In this document: piece by piece, positions 2,764-12,992 of the stretch
How the letters are laid out: each line of letters starts with the position of its first letter
How positions within the stretch are numbered: the stretch's first letter is position 1
Assembly: GCA_016283195.1 (NCBI GenBank)
Contig: JAEEML010000164.1
Coordinates: 1-32,573, forward strand
DNA: 32,573 nucleotides
Direction: 5' to 3'
Source of the DNA: Deltaproteobacteria bacterium
Lineage (GTDB): Bacteria > JAEEML01
Notes under the pieces: generated by a model
What the model saw: the letters and a program-made list of their open reading frames with translations, nothing else
Told to the model about the DNA's origin: nothing
Databases searched by the model: none
Position numbers and translations under genes: made by a program

Positions 2764-2979
2764 GTGCTTTGTTATCGCTGTGGTTCTCATGTTCCTGACG
2801 GAGCAGCTAAGTGTATGGTGTGCGGTCAGCCGCTATCAGGTAATCGCCGGCCGGCGGCAGCTAGTGAAGATAAAGCCAAAGGGCCCGGCCCTTTGAGTGA
2901 TGGAGAGCTCTTTGCCGATCGTTATTTGATTCATGAACTTATAGCTATCGGTACTATCGGCTGGCTCTATAAAGCTTAG
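2764..2979 (+). pseudogene. Zinc-ribbon and N-lobe start of a pseudokinase, cut by an amber codon
   Basis: GTG 2764 is preceded by GAGGG at 2751-2755. The protein starts with a four-cysteine zinc ribbon (CYRCG, then CMVCG), like that of the kinase at 7370-8299. A linker leads to the beginning of a protein-kinase N-lobe with the degenerate glycine loop IGTIGWLYKA. Translation then meets TAG at 2977-2979. The same frame continues at once with DQDLDLEVAVKII, exactly what follows YKA in this kinase family (compare YKARD...VAVK), so 2764-5259 was one gene. On its own this 71-residue fragment would not form a kinase fold. A CAG-to-TAG change is the simplest origin. Confidence 0.75.
2977..2979 (+). 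other. In-frame amber codon inside the pseudokinase gene
   Basis: TAG at codon 72 of the 2764-5259 frame lies between the beta-2 motif LYKA and the VAVK lysine strand. No frameshift is needed to continue. TAG is a normal stop here: it ends genes at 8314-8316 (minus), 12293-12295, 15599-15601, 17010-17012 (minus), 21772-21774 and 27728-27730. General reassignment is therefore unlikely. Nonsense mutation, assembly or base-call error, or local readthrough remain. Confidence 0.85.
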
Positions 2980-3030
2980 GATCAGGACCTTGATTTAGAA
3001 GTAGCCGTTAAAATAATCTCACCCAAGCTC

Positions 3031-5259
3031 TTGCAAGCGCCGGAAGAACAGGAAACATTTCTTGATGCTGTGAAACGGGCGCGGAAAATACGCCATACGA
3101 ATATTATCCGCATTTATGATTCCGGCAATGAAAAGGGCAATTTTTATTATACAATGCCCTTTATTAACGGCCTTTCGCTCGATAAGGTGATTTCGCGGCG
3201 CCAGGAAAACGGCTCGACGTTTGCTCCCGGCGAGCTCTATAGCCTTTTTAGCCAGCTAGCAGCTGCTATTGATGCTCTTAAGCCATACGGGCCGCTTTGT
3301 TCGGTAAAACCGGCCGGTATTTTGGTCTCGGCCAATGCTTTGCGCCTTACCGGTGTGCCGGATTACCAGGGCTTGCCCCATTTCCCTTATGTGGCGATGC
3401 AGCAAAAGCATGGTCTTTTAGGGTATTTGGCTCCCAGCGTGCAAAAAGTCGGAGAACCGGTAAATAGCTGTGCCGATATTTATTCCATGGCCGTTATTTT
3501 GGGTGAAATGCTCACCGGTTTTCGGCCCAGTGATGAGCGGGCTTCTTTTGAAAAGAGCGCTACCTCTTTGGCTGCCCCGGTGCGAGAAGCCATTATCTCA
3601 GCTCTCTTATCGGAAGAGATGAGTGCCAGTGAATTTGTAAATAGAGCTTTTCCGGAAGAGGCCGCCAGAGAGCAGGCGGCGGCTATGGCCGCGATAGATG
3701 GGCCGACGGAAGTAGATATTTCGTCGGCTGCCGGTTTGGCGGCAGAAGCAACTGTTTTGCAACCTATAGAGCCGGAAGTTCAGGCGCCTGTGGCGCCGCC
3801 GGCTCCGGCTCCTGCTCCGGCTCCTGCTCCGGTGCCTGCGCTAGAGCCTGTGGCTGAACCTGCTCCTGCCCCAATGGTTGATGAAGGCTCTATGGGTGGA
3901 GAGGAGATGGAAATCAGTGCCGATGATTTTGAAGAGGAGTTGCCGCCGGCTATTCCTACCTCTGAAGCATTGATTCCCCCGGCTCCCCCGGCTTCGCCGG
4001 CTCCGCTGTTGCCACCGGCTATCCCGGTAGTTAGCGCGGCCGCGCTTACTAAATCCAGAGAGCTGCCTTTGCCGGAATTAACGGCCGGCGAGCCGCCTAA
4101 AAAATCCCGTGGTGTTATTTATGTTATCTTGGGCATATTGCTTTTGGGTGCTATTGCCTGCGGGGCTATTTGGGCTCTTTATTACCGCCCTGTTGAAAAA
4201 GTAGCTGAAAGTAACAAAGCTCTTGATGCGGCGAGTGATACAGCTATAAGCAGTGAGACTGTGGCCCAGACACCAGAGCCGGAGGCCAAAGCCGAAAATA
4301 ATCGCAATAATAGGCGGGAAGAGCGCCAGGCGCGTCAGGGGCGCGGGCAAAATCGCGGCAATAGTGCTTCCCAGGAGCGCGGCAACGAAAAGAGCGATAA
4401 AAACGAGCCGCCGGCCAAGGCTGCCAAAGAGGCGGATAAAGCTAAAGACAGCGGGGCGGCCGCTAAAAATTCGCCGGCTGATAACCAGCCGAAAGAAGAA
4501 CCTAAGAGCGCTTCTAATGTTGAAACCACACCGGTAAATAATCAACCGCAGTTAGCAGGCAAAGCCCAGGTAGCCAAAGAAGATGACGCCGGACAAAATA
4601 GTGAAGCTAAAAAAGTGGTCAGCAAGAATCTCGGTGGCGGGCTGGCCGATATTTTTGGCGCTGAGGGCGGCGCGGCCGGCGGTGAAAAAGCCGGTTCCTG
4701 CCCGGCCGATATGATCTATATTCCGGCCGGCTCATTTAAAATGGGTACAGCGACAAATGATAGTATGCGCGGCTTTGACGACAAGGACTTAACCACTAAA
4801 TATGTTAAGGAATTTTGTATAGATATATATGAATATCCCAATAAAGAAGGGGCCAAAGTCACCCAGAGCCTCTCTTATGGCCAGGCTTTAAAACATTGCC
4901 AGCAAAAGGGCAAACGTCTTTGCAAAGAAGAAGAATGGGAAAAGGCCTGTAAAGGGCCGAATAATTACCGCTTTCCCTATGGTAATCGCTATAATGCTAC
5001 GCAGTGCAACATGACAAAAGGTGCGGCCAATGCCGGCCAGTATTCCCGCTGTAAGAGCGGTTATGGGGTGATGGATATGGCCGGTAATGTGGCAGAGTGG
5101 ACATCCACCAAACTTGAGCCCGATTTGCCGGATCGCATCTATAAAGGCGGCGCTTATGGCCTTGCCGACTGGTCGGGGCGTTGTGCTTCCCGCTTTGCCG
5201 ATGATCCCAATTCTCACCAAGCTATTATGGGTGTGCGCTGCTGTAAAAATGCCCTTTAA
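3031..5259 (+). CDS. Pseudokinase, TM and FGE-sulfatase protein (downstream part of an interrupted gene)
   Basis: The frame is open from 2980; TTG 3031 is the first weak start and leaves out the conserved VAVK lysine (3010-3012). The kinase-like domain spans ~1-210: RKIRHTNIIRIYDSG, then SVKPAGILV (90-98) where active kinases have HRDxKPxN, and GVP (108-110) instead of DFG. Both catalytic aspartates are missing, so it is a pseudokinase. Later marks are GYLAPSVQ and DIYSMAVILGEMLTG. A Pro/Ala-rich stretch (~255-350), one membrane helix (IYVILGILLLGAIACGAIWA, from ~363) and an Asn/Lys/Glu-rich linker lead to a C-terminal FGE-sulfatase/SUMF1-like domain (from ~557; MIYIPAGSFKMG, AGNVAEW, GVRCCK) placed outside the cytoplasm. 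The FGE-like fold often serves as a binding or sensor module. The TPR lipoprotein follows by 27 nt. Confidence 0.85.
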   Translation: MQAPEEQETFLDAVKRARKIRHTNIIRIYDSGNEKGNFYYTMPFINGLSLDKVISRRQENGSTFAPGELYSLFSQLAAAIDALKPYGPLCSVKPAGILVSANALRLTGVPDYQGLPHFPYVAMQQKHGLLGYLAPSVQKVGEPVNSCADIYSMAVILGEMLTGFRPSDERASFEKSATSLAAPVREAIISALLSEEMSASEFVNRAFPEEAAREQAAAMAAIDGPTEVDISSAAGLAAEATVLQPIEPEVQAPVAPPAPAPAPAPAPVPALEPVAEPAPAPMVDEGSMGGEEMEISADDFEEELPPAIPTSEALIPPAPPASPAPLLPPAIPVVSAAALTKSRELPLPELTAGEPPKKSRGVIYVILGILLLGAIACGAIWALYYRPVEKVAESNKALDAASDTAISSETVAQTPEPEAKAENNRNNRREERQARQGRGQNRGNSASQERGNEKSDKNEPPAKAAKEADKAKDSGAAAKNSPADNQPKEEPKSASNVETTPVNNQPQLAGKAQVAKEDDAGQNSEAKKVVSKNLGGGLADIFGAEGGAAGGEKAGSCPADMIYIPAGSFKMGTATNDSMRGFDDKDLTTKYVKEFCIDIYEYPNKEGAKVTQSLSYGQALKHCQQKGKRLCKEEEWEKACKGPNNYRFPYGNRYNATQCNMTKGAANAGQYSRCKSGYGVMDMAGNVAEWTSTKLEPDLPDRIYKGGAYGLADWSGRCASRFADDPNSHQAIMGVRCCKNAL
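3802..3831 (+). repeat. 12-bp tandem repeat coding for Pro-Ala
   Basis: Two and a half units of GCTCCTGCTCCG (first unit partial) encode alternating Ala-Pro in the linker between pseudokinase and membrane helix. Copy number could vary without breaking the frame, which would change linker length. Confidence 0.7.
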
Positions 5260-5286: not shown

Positions 5287-6627
5287 ATGAAATTTGCTCG
5301 CCTCCGCTTTTTAGCCTCTATAGTAATAATTTTTGCTTTTTCCGCTTGTGCCGGCCGGGCAGTGTCGCCGGAACTTTTAAAAAATGCCCGCGTAACGCTC
5401 GAGCAGGGAAATCACCACCAAGCTTATAATGAACTCAAAGAGTTGGTTGATAAATACAAACTCTCTTATGAACTGGTTTCCCTCCATGTGCAGGCCGGGC
5501 TTTTGGCCCAGGATTTAGAAGGGCTTAAAAAGCAATACGACGGCGACAGCGAATGGGATTTATATGGCCGGGGTATGTGGCAGGCGGCTATCGGTGATTA
5601 TATGAGCAGTATTTCCTCTTTTCAAAAGGCTTTGCTCATTAATCCCAAAGAGCCGGAGCTCTATTACCGCCTGGCCATTGCTTATCTGGAGTCCGGTAAA
5701 TACCAGGAAGCACTGGAGTATTTTGCCCTGGCCGAGCGTTATGGTGTAAATAGTCCCAAGCTGCCCATAAGGCGCGCTATGGCCTATGCCGGCTTGCAAA
5801 AATATGATGAAGCCATGGCCGAGCTGGTTAAAGGCCTTACGACAGAGCTTAGCCGCGAAGATTTGCAGAAATATATTGATTATTCCTTTAATATTGTTAA
5901 CAAGAGGCGGAATATTAACCAGCGTGAAATGGAAGCCATTTTGCCAATTCTCGGGCAGCTTACCACGCCGGATAGCGATATCGATAGTGTTTTGGTGCCC
6001 TTGCAAAATCTGATGCAACGCTTTCCCAATTCGGCGCTGCTCCATGCCGTTTTGGGACTCTATTATTTAAAAAGTCATGATGATGCCAAGGGTAACGAGG
6101 CCATAGACCGCGCTATTTCTTATGACCCGCAAGACCCATATCCGCCTTTAATTCTCGGTGAATATCTTTTAGAAGGGCAAAATCCCCAGGCCGCTATGCC
6201 CTATCTGAAAAAGGCCGAAGCGGCTAATCCTCTGGACATAAGAGCGGCCAAAAGTCTTCTTAATTGTGCGCGGAGCATAGGCGATCGCCAGACAGAACAA
6301 GAAATGCTCCTCCTTTTGTCGCGCCTTGACCCCTTGGAAATAGGCTATATTAAATCGCTGGCTACTTATGCTCAGGGTGAAGGTAAATTGGAACTTTCCG
6401 CTTCTTATTATCAAAAAGCCTTGCAACACGATAAACACGATTTGGCAGCTCTTTACGGACTGGCGGCCATCAGCTGGGAAAAAGCCAGAGTAGCTAAGAC
6501 AGCAGCCGAAAAGAAAGAGCATATTGCTTTAGCCCGTTCTTATTTAAAGCAGCTTTTAGCTGATGCTCCGGAGCATATCCAAGGCCTGCAATTACAAAAA
6601 GCTATAGATAATTATCAAGTAAATTAA
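5287..6627 (+). CDS. TPR-repeat lipoprotein
   Basis: A 446-residue protein with a type II signal peptide and lipobox FSAC (Cys21). It is followed by several tetratricopeptide repeats: the clearest are ~104-175 (SFQKALLINPKEPELYYRLAIA, then YQEALEYFALAERYG and KYDEAMAEL) and further copies near 270-330 and 365-405 (YYQKALQHDKHDLAALYGLAA). TPR lipoproteins act as envelope scaffolds (for example in outer-membrane assembly or pilus secretion); no partner can be named here. AGGAGG at 5277-5282 lies 4 nt before the ATG. With only 27 nt to the upstream gene it is likely co-transcribed with the pseudokinase/FGE gene, whose extracytoplasmic domain would share its compartment. No stem-loop terminator is visible after it. 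Confidence 0.88.
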   Translation: MKFARLRFLASIVIIFAFSACAGRAVSPELLKNARVTLEQGNHHQAYNELKELVDKYKLSYELVSLHVQAGLLAQDLEGLKKQYDGDSEWDLYGRGMWQAAIGDYMSSISSFQKALLINPKEPELYYRLAIAYLESGKYQEALEYFALAERYGVNSPKLPIRRAMAYAGLQKYDEAMAELVKGLTTELSREDLQKYIDYSFNIVNKRRNINQREMEAILPILGQLTTPDSDIDSVLVPLQNLMQRFPNSALLHAVLGLYYLKSHDDAKGNEAIDRAISYDPQDPYPPLILGEYLLEGQNPQAAMPYLKKAEAANPLDIRAAKSLLNCARSIGDRQTEQEMLLLLSRLDPLEIGYIKSLATYAQGEGKLELSASYYQKALQHDKHDLAALYGLAAISWEKARVAKTAAEKKEHIALARSYLKQLLADAPEHIQGLQLQKAIDNYQVN

Positions 6628-6638
6628 GAGCCGTTTTT

Positions 6639-6667
6639 TTGACCGTTTTTTTTAGAGCGGTTAGAGT
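6639..6667 (+). promoter_or_regulatory. Possible promoter of the 6704 gene
   Basis: TTGACC (6639-6644), a 17-bp spacer and TAGAGT (6662-6667). The -35 has five of six consensus bases and the -10 four. The start of transcription would fall near 6674. Confidence 0.35.
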
Positions 6668-6700
6668 CCTCCCAACATGTGGCTTGTCATAAAGGAGGAC
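6666..6700 (+). promoter_or_regulatory. Inverted repeat covering the ribosome binding site
   Basis: GTCCTCC (6666-6672) is the exact complement of GGAGGAC (6694-6700), which contains the Shine-Dalgarno of the gene starting at 6704. In an RNA that begins upstream, the 21-nt loop hairpin would hide the ribosome binding site. If transcription starts at the promoter predicted at 6639-6667, the left arm is not transcribed and no hairpin forms. Confidence 0.4.
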
Positions 6701-6703
6701 GCC

Positions 6704-7345
6704 ATGAGCAATGTAATGAGTGAAGCCCAAGAATTAATCGAGGCTCGGCTGGCTGAGTTGGAGCCTGGTAGCCCGCGCTATGAAGTTTTGCGTTCGGCCA
6801 GAGATTTTAAGGCCGCCTGGATTGATTTGGGTGAAAAGTTAACCATGGTGCTGGAACAAAAGCTCTATGATGATTGGGGCTATAGCACCTACGAAGAATA
6901 CTGCGAAGAAGAGCTCAGAATTCGTAAAGGCACAGCTTATAAACTTACCAGGAGCTATAGCTTCCTGCGCGATAATGAGCCGCAGATTTTAAGCCAAAAT
7001 ACTATTACCGCTACCGTGCCGCAATACGAAGTTGCCGACCTTTTGCGCCAGGCTCACGAGAGCGATAATATTGATGAAAATACTTATGAAGAGCTAAGGC
7101 AACAGGCTTTTCAGCCCGATACCACCAAAGCCTCCTTTTTGCGCCAGGTGCGCGAGGCCGACCCGGAGACTTTTAAGCCAGCCAAACCGCCGCGCCCCAA
7201 TCAGGAAGCCAGAAAAGCGCTTTCTATGGCCCGCCGCCTGATGGCCGTTATGGAAAGCATCGAAGATCTCAGCGGTTCGGCTATGGATGGCATTAAGGAT
7301 ATCATTGTGGAGCTGGAAGAGAAGCTCTCTGTTAAGAGCAAATAA
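6704..7345 (+). CDS. Unnamed helical protein, possibly DNA-binding
   Basis: 213 residues starting at ATG 6704 with AAAGGAGG at 6691-6698; an upstream ATG at 6677 has no ribosome site. The region ~35-100 (WIDLGEKLTMVLEQKLYDDW, then GYSTYEEYCEEELRIRKGTA and YKLTRSYSFL) has an aromatic-rich helical pattern I associate with conserved hypothetical proteins in myxobacteria-like genomes. The REL-IRKGTAYKLTRSY part could be a helix-turn-helix, and residues ~120-165 are charged helices with a Pro-rich linker (KPAKPPRPNQ) and a final coiled-coil-like helix. No signal peptide or membrane segment, so cytosolic. It is convergent with the kinase gene at 7370. No function is assigned; a regulator is a guess. 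Confidence 0.75.
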   Translation: MSNVMSEAQELIEARLAELEPGSPRYEVLRSARDFKAAWIDLGEKLTMVLEQKLYDDWGYSTYEEYCEEELRIRKGTAYKLTRSYSFLRDNEPQILSQNTITATVPQYEVADLLRQAHESDNIDENTYEELRQQAFQPDTTKASFLRQVREADPETFKPAKPPRPNQEARKALSMARRLMAVMESIEDLSGSAMDGIKDIIVELEEKLSVKSK

Positions 7346-7369
7346 TTTTCTTTTAAAAACCGCTCATAC

Positions 7370-8299
7370 TTATCTGGAAAATATTCTGCTGAAAAAACTC
7401 ACTTTTTCTCCGTTAGCCTGGCGGATGGCCAGGCTCATCTCTCTGGTGCTTTTAAAGCGCTCGGCCGGGTTTTTGGCCATAGCTTTTAAAGCAACCTTCA
7501 TGAGGAGGGGGGAAATTTCTCTTTCTACCGCTGAGAGTTTGAGAGATTTTTCCAGGTGGGCAGCCATAAAACCGGCGGTATTTTCCGCCGTAAAAGGTGT
7601 GCGCCCCAAAAGCATTTCGCTAAAAAGCAGGCCCAGCTGATAAATATCGGTGCGCTCGGTAAGTTTTTGGCCCAAAATCTGCTCCGGTGCCAAAGCTATG
7701 GGGGTGCCGACAATTATGCCGTAAGCTGTGCGCGAACTCTCGGCATCAAGCTCTTTAATGGCGCCAAGGTCTAACAAAATCGGCTGGTCTTTAGCGGCCA
7801 GAATAACATTTTCCGCTTTGATATCGCGATGAATAAGGCGGGCTTTGTGCAAGGTGCCAACGGCGTCTAACAGAGTGAGCATGATAGAACTGGCTACCGG
7901 CGGAGCAAAAGATCCAATACTCGCCAGTTTTTCGGCCAGAGTGGGGCCTTCTATATAGGGCATTACATAATAAGGCTCCGGAGAATTGCCAACCGCGAGC
8001 ACCTCTATGAGTGCCGGATGATGCACCTCGGAAAGAGTTTTTATTTCCAGCCAAAAGCGGCTCAGACCTATTTCACTTTCAGCCCGCTCGCTCTTTAATA
8101 ATTTTACGGCCACTTTGGCGCCGCTTTCTTCGTCGGTAGCCAGATATACTTTGGACATACCGCCTTCGCCGATAAGGGCTCCAAGGCGAAAGCGGCCGCC
8201 TAAAAGCTCATTTTGCGGCGCGGTAAGCGTGGCTCCGCAATAGAGGCAGAAAGGCATATCATCTTCATTGTTTTGCCCGCATGCTTTGCAAGTAAGCAT
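7370..8299 (-). CDS. Zinc-ribbon Ser/Thr protein kinase (catalytically intact)
   Basis: 309 residues. The N-terminal zinc ribbon uses C4, C7, C18 and C21. The Hanks-type kinase domain (~35-295) has all key parts: glycine loop GEGGMSKVYLA (44-54), Lys66 in VAVK, HRDIKAEN (157-164) with catalytic Asp159, DLG (177-179) in place of DFG, and APEQ (204-207). DLG is an accepted variant that keeps the metal-binding Asp. There is no membrane segment, so it is a soluble kinase acting on Ser/Thr in cytosolic targets. Start ATG 8299 follows AAGGA. It lies 14 nt after the pseudokinase-receptor gene on the same strand, so the receptor could control this kinase. Substrates may include the FHA protein's partners at 12417; that is only conjecture. 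Confidence 0.95.
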   Translation of the reverse strand: MLTCKACGQNNEDDMPFCLYCGATLTAPQNELLGGRFRLGALIGEGGMSKVYLATDEESGAKVAVKLLKSERAESEIGLSRFWLEIKTLSEVHHPALIEVLAVGNSPEPYYVMPYIEGPTLAEKLASIGSFAPPVASSIMLTLLDAVGTLHKARLIHRDIKAENVILAAKDQPILLDLGAIKELDAESSRTAYGIIVGTPIALAPEQILGQKLTERTDIYQLGLLFSEMLLGRTPFTAENTAGFMAAHLEKSLKLSAVEREISPLLMKVALKAMAKNPAERFKSTREMSLAIRQANGEKVSFFSRIFSR

Positions 8300-8313
8300 C
8301 GAATATCCTTGTG

Positions 8314-10281
8314 CTATTTTAATTCTGTGAGACCGCCCCAGGTGATTTGGCCGCTTTCATTCAATTTGGATATCCAAATATGCTTTACAGCTTCGTGGCG
8401 ACCGGCGGAAAGCTCCAAGGTAACTTCACCCAGATTTAGGGAGACTCCAAGTTCAAGAGCTTTGGAGAGTGTAGTGCCGCTCACCGGCCCGCTCTCAATT
8501 TTGTTTAGAGCGGCTAAGAAGAGCCTGGTAGCCAGGTAACCTTCAAAGGAGGTGCTATCGGCCTCGCCGCCTTCGCTGTATTTATTTACCGCTGCATTAT
8601 ATTCGCGGGCGATGGGGGAGGCAGTGCGATAATCAGGTACCAACTGGCTGATAGTTATATTGAATTTTTTAACCTTAAATTCTTTTAAAAGTTCGGCCAG
8701 CGCCTCCGTGCCAACAATCGACATGGTAACAAAATGGGGATGAAAGCCGCCATCATCAAGTTGCTGCACGAGATTGGCCAGCGGATCATAGGTGGCAATA
8801 GCTATTATGGTGTCTATTTTGTCGCGTGCAGCCAAAAAAGTGGCCGCAGCGGCGGAAACATCGAGGGAATTAGCAATATAAGAGGCGCGCGGAAGTTGTT
8901 TGGGATCGCTTACGCCCAGGGCTTTTAATGCCTTATTTACGCCGATGAGTCCGCTGGTGCCAAAAGGTCCCTCTTGGTAAAAAACGGCGACCCGCTTGGG
9001 GTCGAGATGCTCATTTTGGGCTAGGTAATTAATGAGCGTTTCGAGTTCATTGCTGTAGCGCGGGCGGTAGGTATAAACCAGCTCCTCCGGCGGCACACGG
9101 TGCAAAAAATCGGCTCCGGAAAGCGGGGCAAAAAAGAGAGATTTGTTGTTTAAAACCATAGCCCTGGTTTGGGCAGTGGCCGCTGTACCGGTAACGCCCA
9201 GTATTACCGGCGGATTATCTTTAAGGAGCTTTTTCACGTTATCTTCGGCTAATTGGGCGTTGTAGCCGTCATCCAAAGCTTTTAGCTTTATTTCATAAGG
9301 CTCATTTTTTTTGTTGTATTCGCCGATAGCCGATAAAATACCTTCGCGGTAGGAAATACCGATTTCCCGGTTTAAGCCGCTTAAAGAGACGCTCATAGCC
9401 ATAGCCAGCGTTTTTTTGGGGCCATTAAACTTTTTCTCTTCATCTTTAGGCATAAGGAAAAAGAAGGCACCGACCAGTACCAGCAAGATAATAACCAGCG
9501 AGCTTATTATGATAGGTGTATTACTACGTGACGGTAGTTCTACCGCGCCGCTGGCAGTACCTAAAGTCCAGGTATCGCGGCGCATACTTAAGGTGGTGCT
9601 GTGTTTGGCAAATTCTTGAAGCAGTTCATCCCAACCTGCCGGCATATTTTCGCCTTTATATAAATCATAAAGATGGTTAAGCCAGTCTTCATCGGCTGTC
9701 GGCGCCAGATTTTTCAGCTCTTCCGGGGATGAGGGAGTGTAATCCGGGCGGCCGGTAGCTATTTTTAGGCCTAACGCCGCCAGCTGGCGGGAAATTTGCT
9801 TGAAGCCTGGGCGGTTATCGGAAGCTTCGCCGAGCACTACCTTGAGCAATTTTTTGTTGTCACTGGTGGAAACAATAAAAAAATAACTTGGTTTAATATC
9901 GCCGAAGATGAGGTCATGCGTAGCCAGAACATTAATCGCCTGAGCCATTTGGTAAAAAATTTGTTCTATTTGCCAACGGGCCAGCGGGGCAGACTCGCTA
10001 AGCCATTCCATGAGGGGCTTGCCTTCAAGAAATTCTAAAACAACTATTAGCTCCAGTCCGTTTTTGGCGACATCAACCACGGCAGCCAAATTGGGGTGTG
10101 ATACTTTCCCGCAGTTTAAAACAGCTTGACAAGCTTTGTCCTGCTCTCTGGCATTGGAAAATTTATGAATAATTATTTCAACTTTACGCCCAAGAGGCTG
10201 CTGCACGCCGAAATAGCGCTTTATATGGTCGTTGGAAAATTTGAGCTCTTTTAATTCGTAACTGCCAAGTAGTAAGTCCAT
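8314..10281 (-). CDS. Transmembrane pseudokinase with LivJ-type ligand-binding domain
   Basis: 655 residues from ATG 10281 (GGAG 6 nt upstream; a longer frame to 10338 is not needed). Residues ~5-235 follow a protein kinase fold but lack catalysis: VEII (34-37) stands where VAIK should give the lysine, FGDIKPSYF (126-134) keeps the loop Asp and Lys but loses the Asn, and LGE (150-152) replaces DFG. One membrane helix is at ~255-278 (TPIIISSLVIILLVLVGAFF). The extracytoplasmic part (~290-655) is a periplasmic-binding-protein type 1 fold like the branched-chain amino-acid receptors LivJ/Peripla_BP_6: SVSLSGLNREIGISYREGIL, VILGVTGTAATA, FFAPLSGA, KRVAVFYQEGPFG. It looks like a one-pass receptor whose ligand, perhaps an amino acid, is sensed outside and signalled through a non-catalytic kinase domain. 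The active kinase gene follows by 14 nt. Confidence 0.92.
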   Translation of the reverse strand: MDLLLGSYELKELKFSNDHIKRYFGVQQPLGRKVEIIIHKFSNAREQDKACQAVLNCGKVSHPNLAAVVDVAKNGLELIVVLEFLEGKPLMEWLSESAPLARWQIEQIFYQMAQAINVLATHDLIFGDIKPSYFFIVSTSDNKKLLKVVLGEASDNRPGFKQISRQLAALGLKIATGRPDYTPSSPEELKNLAPTADEDWLNHLYDLYKGENMPAGWDELLQEFAKHSTTLSMRRDTWTLGTASGAVELPSRSNTPIIISSLVIILLVLVGAFFFLMPKDEEKKFNGPKKTLAMAMSVSLSGLNREIGISYREGILSAIGEYNKKNEPYEIKLKALDDGYNAQLAEDNVKKLLKDNPPVILGVTGTAATAQTRAMVLNNKSLFFAPLSGADFLHRVPPEELVYTYRPRYSNELETLINYLAQNEHLDPKRVAVFYQEGPFGTSGLIGVNKALKALGVSDPKQLPRASYIANSLDVSAAAATFLAARDKIDTIIAIATYDPLANLVQQLDDGGFHPHFVTMSIVGTEALAELLKEFKVKKFNITISQLVPDYRTASPIAREYNAAVNKYSEGGEADSTSFEGYLATRLFLAALNKIESGPVSGTTLSKALELGVSLNLGEVTLELSAGRHEAVKHIWISKLNESGQITWGGLTELK

Positions 10282-10308
10282 GATACTCTCCACAAGTTCC
10301 CGAGGCGC

Positions 10309-10338
10309 ACTATAACAAAAGGCCGATAAATTTGGCAA
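10309..10338 (-). promoter_or_regulatory. Sigma70-like promoter of the receptor/kinase pair
   Basis: On the minus strand, TTGCCA (10338-10333), an 18-bp spacer and TATAGT (10314-10309); each box has five of six consensus bases. Transcription would start near 10302, about 20 nt before the ATG at 10281, which supports that start over the longer frame. Confidence 0.5.
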
Positions 10339-10402
10339 TTGCAGAAGAATGAAGGATAAAAAGGTCCAAGATGCGGAAAGGCGGAATAAATGAGCGCGGA
10401 AA

Positions 10403-11098
10403 TCACATAGTTTTTTGGGCAGCTTTGGCGGCTCTGGCGGCTTTCATGGCTTCCAGTTTGGCTTTAGCGGAAACATCCACGCTGTCTTTGCGCAAAGCGG
10501 CGAGCTGTGAATCGAGGTCGCCGTCTTTGAGCTCTTTGTTAAGCTGAGCTTTGGCTTCCAGATTTTTGATATTTTCGCGCACGCTGTCGAGAGCTTTCAT
10601 ATCGTCATCAACGCTAAGCCCTTCGAGTTGCTCTTGCACCTGAATGCGGGCTTTGGCACTGGCCATTTTGGCCAAATTGCGATCTTTCTCGTCTTTGAGT
10701 TCCTGAATTTTGGCCTGAACTTCCTGGAGAGAAGATTTAGCGGAGTCGGCATCATCGGCAGCCTGTTTTAACTGGGCAGTTAAATCGGCAATTTCAGCTT
10801 CCAATTTTTCCTGCTTTTTAATGAGGATAACGGCCAAATCATCACGACCGGAATCAACGGCTGTTTCCAAATCGCCGTTTACCTGGTCGAGGTTCTTTTG
10901 AGCATCTTTCAGGCGGGCATCGATATCATTGCGCCGGCTGATGATGGACGCTGTGGCGGTTTTTAAAGCATTATATTTTTCCACCATGGAGTTAATACTG
11001 TTTTCGTAGGCGATTTCCGGATGTTCGGCTTCTACGTTTTTAATCCATAAGCTGGTGAATCCGCGCCATAAATTTGCTAGTCTTCCAAAAAATCCCAT
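10403..11098 (-). CDS. pspA: PspA/IM30-family membrane-stress protein
   Basis: 231 residues, nearly all predicted helix and coiled coil. The start MGFFGRLANLWRGFTSLW is an amphipathic membrane-binding helix, and the body has the PspA/IM30 (PF04012) pattern with long heptads (AQKNLDQVNGDLETAV, LIKKQEKLEAEIADLTAQL, LQEVQAKIQELKDEKDRNLA) and a late conserved segment near DDDMKALDSVRENIKNLEAKA. The family binds and remodels the inner face of the cytoplasmic membrane during envelope stress, forming ESCRT-III-like assemblies. AGGAGG lies 5 nt before the ATG. The partners pspBC or pspF are not nearby. It precedes the receptor/kinase pair on the same strand by 121 nt, and that pair has its own promoter. 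Confidence 0.9.
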   Translation of the reverse strand: MGFFGRLANLWRGFTSLWIKNVEAEHPEIAYENSINSMVEKYNALKTATASIISRRNDIDARLKDAQKNLDQVNGDLETAVDSGRDDLAVILIKKQEKLEAEIADLTAQLKQAADDADSAKSSLQEVQAKIQELKDEKDRNLAKMASAKARIQVQEQLEGLSVDDDMKALDSVRENIKNLEAKAQLNKELKDGDLDSQLAALRKDSVDVSAKAKLEAMKAARAAKAAQKTM

Positions 11099-11226
11099 TA
11101 CTGCCTCCTATGCATAACTGCATATTGCAAAAGTCACCCTTAGATACTACTCTTTTTCCATTACTTCAAGAGATAACTAAAAAAATGTTATATTTTCCCT
11201 CCGGGCGCACATCAGGCGAATAAAAA

Positions 11227-11255
11227 ATGACAATGAAGCTCTTCTGTGTTAGACT
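11227..11255 (+). promoter_or_regulatory. Possible promoter of the antiporter gene
   Basis: ATGACA (11227-11232), a 17-bp spacer and TAGACT (11250-11255) in the divergent gap between pspA and the antiporter. The predicted leader is about 53 nt. Confidence 0.3.
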
Positions 11256-11314
11256 CCGGCAGCTCTCTTTCCTAGGCCTACAGGGAATGAAGAGTAAATA
11301 CTAAGGGAGTAATA

Positions 11315-12295
11315 ATGCTGATTTTTATTATAGAACTTATTGCCGGTATGGCGCTGCTTTATTTTGGCGGCGATTGGCTCGTGGACTCTTCCAGCCACCT
11401 GGCGCGGCGTCTTGGAGTTAAGCCTTTGGTTATCGGCCTTACCATTGTGGCTTTCGGCACATCCTGCCCGGAACTTTTGGTCTCCACCATTTCGGCTTTA
11501 AACGGGCAGGACAGCGTGGCGCTCGGCAATGTGGTGGGCAGTAATATTACCAATATTGCTTTGGTGCTGGGGCTCGTGGCTCTTTTAAAGCCGATACCGA
11601 TAGAAAAAACGCTTCTCAAAAAGGAGTACCTCATCACCCTGATTGTAGCTTTTATTCTTTTGGCCTGCTGTCTCGATTTTAATGTCTCCCGCTTAGATGG
11701 CGCGCTGCTCACCCTGGGCGTGATTATTTTTACTTTCTGGGCCATTTGGGATGCTAAAAAGAACAAAGCGCCACTACCTAAAGAGGTAGCCGAACTGGCG
11801 GCCGATACCCCCGAAACTGCCGGCGAGGCTTCCTCTGCCGGCAAAGAACTGGCTAAAGATATCATCTTTTTGCTACTTGGCCTTGGCGCTTTGGTGGGCG
11901 GAGCCAAGCTTTTAGTAATTGGCGCGACAGGCGTAGCCAGAGCTCTCGGTGTTTCGGAACTGGTTATCGGCCTCACGATGGTGGCTCTCGGCACCAGTTT
12001 ACCGGAATTATCCACTTCGGTAATCGGCATACTTAAAGGCGAAGACGAGATTGCCGTAGGCAATATTTTGGGCAGTAACATCTTTAATATCCTGGCTGTT
12101 ATGGGCGTCTCTGCGGCTATCAGGCCGGTTGGTGTAGAAAAGATAGCTTTTTATCGTGATATTCCCATTATGATCGGCATAACCGTTCTTTTGGGCCTCT
12201 TAATGCGTCCGGGGTACAAGCTCTCTCGCTGGCGTGGCGCTCTTTTGCTAACTATTTATGCTGCTTACACCGTTTATATATATCTTCCCGGCTAG
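11315..12295 (+). CDS. Calcium/sodium antiporter (CaCA family, YrbG-like)
   Basis: 326 residues with about ten membrane helices and the two inverted alpha-repeats that define the Ca2+:cation antiporter family: GTSCPELLVSTIS with GNVVGSNITNIALVLGL in the first half, and GTSLPELSTSVIG with GNILGSNIFNILAVMG in the second. The Glu in each PEL and the Asn/Ser/Asp residues of the GN-GSN motifs form the ion site. A hydrophilic loop at ~150-185 separates the halves. It exchanges Na+ (or H+) for Ca2+ across the cytoplasmic membrane. The ATG is preceded by GGGAG at 11305-11309. It stands alone: pspA is divergent and the FHA gene begins 121 nt later. Length and topology are typical for YrbG. Confidence 0.95.
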   Translation: MLIFIIELIAGMALLYFGGDWLVDSSSHLARRLGVKPLVIGLTIVAFGTSCPELLVSTISALNGQDSVALGNVVGSNITNIALVLGLVALLKPIPIEKTLLKKEYLITLIVAFILLACCLDFNVSRLDGALLTLGVIIFTFWAIWDAKKNKAPLPKEVAELAADTPETAGEASSAGKELAKDIIFLLLGLGALVGGAKLLVIGATGVARALGVSELVIGLTMVALGTSLPELSTSVIGILKGEDEIAVGNILGSNIFNILAVMGVSAAIRPVGVEKIAFYRDIPIMIGITVLLGLLMRPGYKLSRWRGALLLTIYAAYTVYIYLPG

Positions 12296-12416: not shown

Positions 12417-12992
12417 ATGAGCGAACTTACCCCCGACAGTGGTCTTCCCCAAGCAGTTCCGCCGTATGTTGACGGCGCCAGGCGTATGAGTAAGGAACAA
12501 TTTTTGCAATATACCCCGCAGCCTTTCCTGCTTTTTCCCCGCTCAACGCTGTGGGATCCGCTATTGCTCCAAGTGCAAGCCAGCGGTGCCGAAGGGGCTA
12601 CCAAAGTAGTTTCTTATGATGTGCAAACGGGCGGGTATTCCTTTATTTGTCCTATAAGAAAGCGCAAACAAAACGAAGATCCCCGCATTTACCTGGGGCG
12701 TGTTAGCAAGTATAACGACTTAGTTATCCCTGTTTCTTCTGTTTCTTCGCGCCATGCTTGCTTTTTGAATCCCAGTGTTTCCATGAGCGGCAAGTGGGCC
12801 ATTATGGACCTCGGTTCTTCTAACGGTACTTGGGTTAACGATGAAGGTATTGCCCCAAACACGGAAACAGCTCTGGAAAGCGGTGTTTCTCTGCGTCTCG
12901 GCGGCAATCTTATTGCCTGGTTCTTTGATGCACCGGATTTTTACCAAGTGCTTATTGATGACCAAAAATTGCAATATTACGTCAGCTACTAA
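12417..12992 (+). CDS. FHA-domain protein
   Basis: 191 residues with a forkhead-associated domain at ~85-170, which binds phosphothreonine peptides. The hallmark residues are present: GR (94-95), SSRH (110-113) and SSNGTWVND (134-142). The N-terminal ~75 residues are not recognised. There is no membrane segment, so it is cytosolic. It is a natural reader of Ser/Thr kinase output, and the intact kinase at 7370-8299 is a possible source of its ligand, although they are not in one operon. ATG 12417 has GAGG at 12407-12410. Only 3 nt separate it from the uracil-DNA glycosylase gene, so the two are translated together. Confidence 0.92.
   Translation: MSELTPDSGLPQAVPPYVDGARRMSKEQFLQYTPQPFLLFPRSTLWDPLLLQVQASGAEGATKVVSYDVQTGGYSFICPIRKRKQNEDPRIYLGRVSKYNDLVIPVSSVSSRHACFLNPSVSMSGKWAIMDLGSSNGTWVNDEGIAPNTETALESGVSLRLGGNLIAWFFDAPDFYQVLIDDQKLQYYVSY

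Follow-up and report, generated by a model that had tools for sequence, protein, structure and literature searches.

A predicted pseudokinase receptor with a Peripla_BP_6 ectodomain encoded next to an intact zinc-ribbon Ser/Thr kinase in a deltaproteobacterial genome

The stretch of DNA that we analysed (32,573 nucleotides, contig JAEEML010000164.1 of the deltaproteobacterial assembly GCA_016283195.1; hereafter the window) carries on its minus strand a gene for a membrane receptor and, downstream of it on the same strand, a gene for a soluble kinase, with 14 nt between the receptor stop and the kinase start. The features of this region are as follows.

10309..10338, minus strand: candidate sigma-70-like promoter TTGCCA-18-TATAGT with an extended-10 TG, 10/12 matches
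10291-10287, minus strand: ribosome site GGAGA of the receptor gene, read from the sequence
8314-10281, minus strand: receptor gene, 655 aa (ATG at 10281, TAG at 8316-8314), encoding a pseudokinase, one membrane helix and Peripla_BP_6
9597..10272, minus strand: pseudokinase domain, about residues 4-228, with VEII at 10182, FGDIKPSY at 9906-9883 and no DFG
9451..9513, minus strand: single transmembrane helix, about residues 257-277, from hydropathy and the structure model
8317..9414, minus strand: extracytoplasmic Peripla_BP_6 (LivJ-type) domain, residues 290-655, from Pfam, the model and Foldseek
8310-8306, minus strand: ribosome site AAGGA of the partner kinase gene, read from the sequence
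7370-8299, minus strand: partner kinase gene, 309 aa (ATG at 8299, end at 7370), encoding a soluble Hanks-type Ser/Thr kinase with an N-terminal zinc ribbon
8234..8290, minus strand: zinc-ribbon motif CKACG..CLYCG, CxxC-x10-CxxC, Zn_ribbon_3 at 23.5 bits
7324..7339, minus strand: weak terminator-like hairpin 3' of the kinase gene, not above shuffle expectation

The natural reading of this arrangement is that the receptor and kinase genes form a two-gene unit. The promoter-like site lies 28-57 nt 5' of the receptor start and is the top-scoring such site within positions 6600-11350; because such sites are no more numerous in this region than in shuffled sequences, the candidate promoter rests mainly on its position. 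The next gene downstream of the kinase (6677-7345) is convergent. Upstream of the receptor, 121 nt apart and on the same strand, is a PspA/IM30-family gene (10403-11098), and 2.1 kb upstream, on the plus strand, is an FHA-domain gene (12417-12992) whose product could conceivably read phosphorylation by the kinase.

The N-terminal part of the receptor matched the Pfam Pkinase model (5e-11, residues 48-141), and we judged its catalytic state in an alignment with the kinases of its own genome and 13 kinases from elsewhere. In this alignment VAIK has become VEII, with loss of the beta3 lysine, the alpha-C glutamate is replaced by valine, and FGDIKPSY stands in place of HRDIKPxN, such that the histidine and arginine of the HRD motif are lost and the catalytic-loop asparagine is a tyrosine; there is neither a DFG motif nor a glycine loop, and the HRD aspartate (Asp128) and the next lysine (Lys130) are retained. 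An AlphaFold2 model of the receptor, built with an alignment of 23 relatives (mean pLDDT 84.9), arranges the secondary-structure elements of the two kinase lobes in the proper sequence over residues 8-227, and Foldseek also matched the model to kinases (~1e-10). Alpha-F follows beta8 in this model after ~11 residues, indicating that the activation segment is nearly gone, and the juxtamembrane stretch (residues 229-255), which is Ser/Thr-rich, is disordered. By sequence, a bacterial pseudokinase of the Hanks fold is a recognisable kinase fold lacking at least one of the VAIK lysine, the HRD aspartate and the DFG aspartate; here the first and the last of these are lost and the HRD aspartate is kept, so that by its sequence the receptor kinase domain is a pseudokinase.

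The one strongly hydrophobic segment of the receptor (hydropathy 3.08 over 19 residues, 257-275; a helix at 257-276 in the model) separates this domain from a C-terminal part that matched Peripla_BP_6 (1.8e-33, residues 295-644) and was modelled with a binding-protein fold at residues 290-653. Among solved structures, Foldseek matched the model best to 4kv7 from Rhodopirellula baltica, which is of the LivJ type (TM-score 0.88 by target), and next to leucine- and GABA-receptor-type binding proteins; a Pfam scan of the receptor gave no PASTA match. Pfam, the alignment, hydropathy and the model therefore agree with the original prediction that a single gene joins a dead kinase, a membrane helix and a binding domain, and its description of the ectodomain as LivJ-type holds at the level of the family (Peripla_BP_6, and 4kv7).

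The product of the downstream gene has kept its kinase motifs: it matched Pfam Pkinase at 3.1e-41, its nearest solved structure is PknB (2.2e-41), and in the alignment it keeps GEGGMSKVY (GxGGM), VAVK, the glutamate, HRDIKAEN, DLG and APEQ, the only departures being DLG for DFG and alanine for proline in HRDIKAEN. By sequence it is a Hanks-type kinase with all catalytic elements present, predicted to be active, and the coordinates, Pfam score and full motif set bear out the earlier claim of an intact soluble kinase 14 nt downstream. The zinc ribbon that had also been claimed for it is clear as a CxxC-x10-CxxC pattern, although its Zn_ribbon_3 score lies below the Pfam cut-off of 27 bits. A Pfam scan of the 309 residues showed no TPR domain, and the protein has no recognisable docking module. 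We considered its C-terminal KVSFFSRIFSR as a membrane anchor and set this aside: the hydrophobic moment (0.61) is equalled by other stretches of the protein, making such an anchor a guess. A single-sequence structure model of the kinase was useless (pLDDT 38.9).

A search with a profile of the ectodomain revealed ~28 distinct single-chain relatives in which kinase, membrane helix and Peripla_BP_6 are joined in one protein, all of them, including one in the same genome, missed by the original prediction. These are found in genomes G083, G527, G613, G273, G726, G905, G845, G135, G801, G934 and G935, and those in named records come from Acidobacteriota (Thermoanaerobaculia), Deltaproteobacteria/Myxococcota, Planctomycetota (Gimesia, Zavarzinella formosa, Gemmataceae, Phycisphaeraceae) and Gammaproteobacteria (Aliikangiella marina). 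The beta3 lysine, the HRD aspartate and the DFG aspartate are kept in all ~28, leaving the window receptor as the only dead member among the family receptors found. Most of the zinc ribbons belong to receptors from Acidobacteriota and Myxococcota and to the copy that the window's own genome has on contig C131 (L029:6256-8421), a 721-aa protein with zinc ribbon, intact kinase, TM and Peripla_BP_6, whose gene lies directly before grpE and dnaK. In Myxococcota and Acidobacteriota there are also related Peripla_BP_6 receptors with DUF4388 replacing the kinase, so that some members of the Peripla_BP_6 group have no kinase at all, and the neighbourhoods of these DUF4388-linked receptors contained no adjacent kinase gene. 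With the single-chain receptors as query, no place in plasmid records covered 80% of the query, and our literature search found no papers on Peripla_BP_6-kinase fusions or single-chain receptor kinases of this type.

Several loci seen alongside this family deserve mention in their own right. Two genomes of one planctomycete genus (L143:5495-9382 and L144:5350-9290) show a mirror image of the window pair: ~290 nt downstream of the gene for a live Peripla_BP_6 receptor kinase lies the gene for a degenerate kinase that retains VAVK, has HND and lacks DFG. The loci of two further genomes in that genus did not show this arrangement. The Myxococcota loci L254, L255, L257 and L258 encode membrane-anchored Peripla_BP_6 receptors, some with internal DUF4388, and in several of them the gene directly downstream encodes another Peripla_BP_6 protein, which is apparently secreted. 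The receptor genes of L153 and L154 have equal lengths (809 aa) and equal scores, and belong to MAGs from one groundwater co-assembly labelled Chloroflexi and Planctomycetota, while L209 is an 'Emcibacter' MAG with a Gimesia-like receptor; these receptor contigs are probably mis-binned. The genome of the window has no stand-alone LivJ-type Peripla_BP_6 protein except for one lipoprotein-like gene on contig C166.

To place the two kinases of the window by descent, we scored the pseudokinase against 67 kinase sequences. Among those of its own genome the best match was the C131 receptor kinase (45.8 bits), the next scored 25.9 and the neighbouring partner 16.7; the highest score overall (48.7) went to a G034 kinase that is itself partly degenerate and had been fetched with the window receptor as query. 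Receptor-linked kinases outscored the others (Mann-Whitney p 0.0016), a result to be read with the uneven sampling and the non-independence of related receptors in mind, and one against which the fetching of some non-receptor kinases with the window receptor as query would have worked. The pseudokinase branch in the kinase tree is extremely long (7.07). As its nearest kinase in the genome is that of the C131 receptor, the window receptor appears to be a degenerate member of the receptor-kinase family, and its domain order (kinase fold, one TM, Peripla_BP_6) is that of the family. In a tree of ectodomains the receptor-linked Peripla_BP_6 domains group together, ten of them with support of 100/93, and the window and C131 ectodomains, only about 25% identical to each other, lie nearest this clade on long branches; the window ectodomain falls tentatively on the receptor-linked side, with support of 85/50 (22/89 in another tree), again on a long branch. 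As judged from the kinase comparison and the domain order, the whole receptor, inner and outer parts alike, is probably a member of the receptor-kinase family that has lost its catalytic motifs. We considered whether a single receptor kinase had simply broken up into two genes and rejected this, as neither the pseudokinase nor the C131 kinase is a sister of the partner; its place on a different kinase branch suggests that the pair arose by assembly rather than by splitting.

We saw the pair in a single genome. Querying 84,980 species with the receptor did not turn up the same pair, and searches of genomes with the receptor or the ectodomain revealed no orthologous pair and no genome nearer than the 'same domain' level. 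The genome itself has ~22 kinases; of its ~23 kinase-fold genes three are degenerate, all three membrane-anchored. Besides the window receptor these are L054 (contig C18), with a C-terminal membrane segment, and the product of a plus-strand gene on the same contig as the pair (2764-5259), which has a zinc ribbon, a degenerate kinase that retains VAVK but neither HRD nor DFG, a membrane helix and an FGE-sulfatase domain, and is interrupted within the kinase domain by an in-frame TAG at 2977-2979 (a mutation or an assembly error).

We put at about even the chance that the window encodes a two-gene module derived from a Peripla_BP_6 receptor kinase, in which a ligand-controlled receptor acts in trans on the neighbouring kinase through its pseudokinase. 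In such a module the outer domain of the receptor would bind a small molecule and close on it, and this closure may rearrange a presumed receptor dimer, in its presumed membrane orientation, through the single membrane helix. The pseudokinase, transferring no phosphate, would then offer a docking and allosteric surface to the soluble zinc-ribbon kinase, which would be made from the same transcript as the receptor and would carry out the phosphorylation; the effect on the partner would presumably be activation rather than inhibition. We favour control in trans because of the gene spacing, the candidate promoter, the occurrence of a dead receptor beside a live kinase, and the ~28 relatives with a live kinase in the same chain; the sole receptor without catalytic motifs has a separate zinc-ribbon kinase gene directly behind its own. 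From what the genes encode, signalling in trans to the adjacent kinase is the most likely of the designs considered. More tentatively, and with somewhat less than even confidence, we speculate that the receptor kinase has been split by function, its fold kept as an allosteric switch and catalysis moved to a dedicated soluble partner, as a bacterial counterpart of EFR-BAK1 or HER3-HER2.

Several points weigh against control in trans: the partner kinase and the pseudokinase are not sisters, by score and by tree; the partner has no recognisable docking module; the live C131 paralogue could equally be the receptor's partner; and, the pair being known from one genome with ~22 kinases and another kinase-fold gene on the same contig, the adjacency could be accidental. 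The original prediction is partly supported: signalling in trans to the adjacent kinase stands as the most likely design, with direct allosteric activation as a candidate mechanism, but the same facts would suit a receptor that serves as scaffold or substrate, or one that pairs with its C131 relative. As a scaffold or substrate, comparable to mycobacterial MviN, the receptor would be phosphorylated by the adjacent or another kinase on its disordered, Ser/Thr-rich juxtamembrane stretch, creating a docking site for a reader such as the FHA protein, with the signal running from kinase to receptor. A review of bacterial pseudokinases describes the MviN pseudokinase as likewise lacking all motifs, with the activation loop deleted, and as recruiting FhaA once phosphorylated by PknB (PMC12599244), and an FHA gene does lie nearby in the window. 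That gene, however, is on the other strand and outside the transcription unit, FHA proteins are common, and an ectodomain of a ligand-binding type implies an input from outside; we consider this role unlikely, if still a serious alternative. Less likely again is a receptor heterodimer in which the dead receptor joins the live C131 paralogue, as HER3 does HER2, to modulate that paralogue's activity or the range of its ligands, with the soluble kinase as an unrelated neighbour. C131 is indeed the top own-genome match of the pseudokinase, and both receptors have one membrane helix and an ectodomain of the same family; but C131 is encoded on another contig, by grpE-dnaK, the two ectodomains have diverged to about a quarter identity, and the kinase 14 nt away would be left without explanation.

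The remaining alternatives deny the receptor either a function or a loss of activity. Its kinase domain is divergent enough (the branch of 7.07) for a decaying duplicate heading for loss beside an independent kinase, and a degenerate kinase domain, together with an in-frame TAG, is likewise present in the nearby gene at 2764-5259. On the other hand, the 655-aa reading frame is open, its GC content by codon position is coding-like and both domains were modelled confidently, all of which makes decay less likely; moreover the deletion of the activation segment is an ordered one, the promoter-like and ribosome sites are intact and the ectodomain scores well against Peripla_BP_6. We regard decay as very unlikely. 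Most improbable of all, in our estimate, is that the kinase fold kept some other ATP-dependent chemistry (as in SelO or SidJ) or a residual activity through Asp128 and Lys130: these two residues do remain (FGDIK), but the beta3 lysine, alpha-C glutamate, glycine loop, catalytic asparagine and metal-binding aspartate are all lost, whereas SidJ and SelO kept the ATP-binding lysine, according to a table in the same review (PMC12599244).

What is new here is that single-chain Peripla_BP_6 receptor kinases exist and that the window receptor appears to be a dead member of their family. A LivJ-type ectodomain on a Ser/Thr kinase is a widespread design, present in several phyla, for which we found no published description, and the single-chain form is a candidate route for nutrient sensing via Ser/Thr phosphorylation outside Actinobacteria. 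Bacterial pseudokinases are experimentally largely unexplored, as stated in the review cited above; the passages of it that we consulted mention no solute-binding receptor, and the word 'periplasmic' is absent from the review (PMC12599244). One genome here contains dead and live versions of one sensor design, with a candidate catalytic partner 14 nt from the dead one, and this makes the switching of separate kinases by bacterial pseudokinase receptors directly testable.

Among known systems, the window receptor shares its domain order with the single-chain Peripla_BP_6 receptor kinases, several of which also have a zinc ribbon; it differs in lacking the catalytic motifs, with catalysis and zinc ribbon residing in a second protein. 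Unlike the PASTA receptor kinases (PknB/StkP), it has no extracellular PASTA repeats. In the animal pair HER3-HER2, a receptor kinase domain whose own catalysis is dispensable allosterically activates a separate active kinase. In plants the kinase-dead EFR allosterically activates BAK1 (PMC11259431). These two pairs, unlike that of the window, are eukaryotic, their partner is itself a membrane receptor, and their ectodomains are unrelated. Within bacteria, the MviN/ActPs3 pseudokinases resemble the window receptor in motif loss, activation-loop deletion and a membrane segment after the pseudokinase, but are mainly actinobacterial and tied to a membrane protein that peptidoglycan synthesis requires, and the review mentions no solute-binding ectodomain for them (PMC12599244); the window receptor has instead a Peripla_BP_6 ectodomain and one TM, and no MviN membrane protein. 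EssB/YukC of type VII secretion are likewise transmembrane pseudokinases with a degraded glycine loop and a short activation loop, but are parts of a secretion machine with no kinase partner and no ligand-binding domain (PMC12599244). The original prediction knew of no described bacterial system with this pair, and with respect to Peripla_BP_6-kinase fusions our literature search agrees; it overlooked, however, the GlnH-GlnX-PknG system of Actinobacteria, in which a solute-binding protein signals via a membrane protein to a soluble kinase, mycobacterial PknG having an N-terminal rubredoxin (metal) domain (PMC6069109, PMC9769921, PMC8546545). That system comprises three proteins; the four membrane segments and the four-helix-bundle sensors of GlnX contrast with the one TM and the pseudokinase of the window receptor, and PknG has a C-terminal TPR domain that the window kinase lacks. 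Both nonetheless combine jointly encoded components: an amino-acid-type binding part outside the cell, a protein in the membrane, and a Ser/Thr kinase that is soluble and a protein of its own. By this analogy GlnH-GlnX-PknG would be the closest described system working in a similar way.
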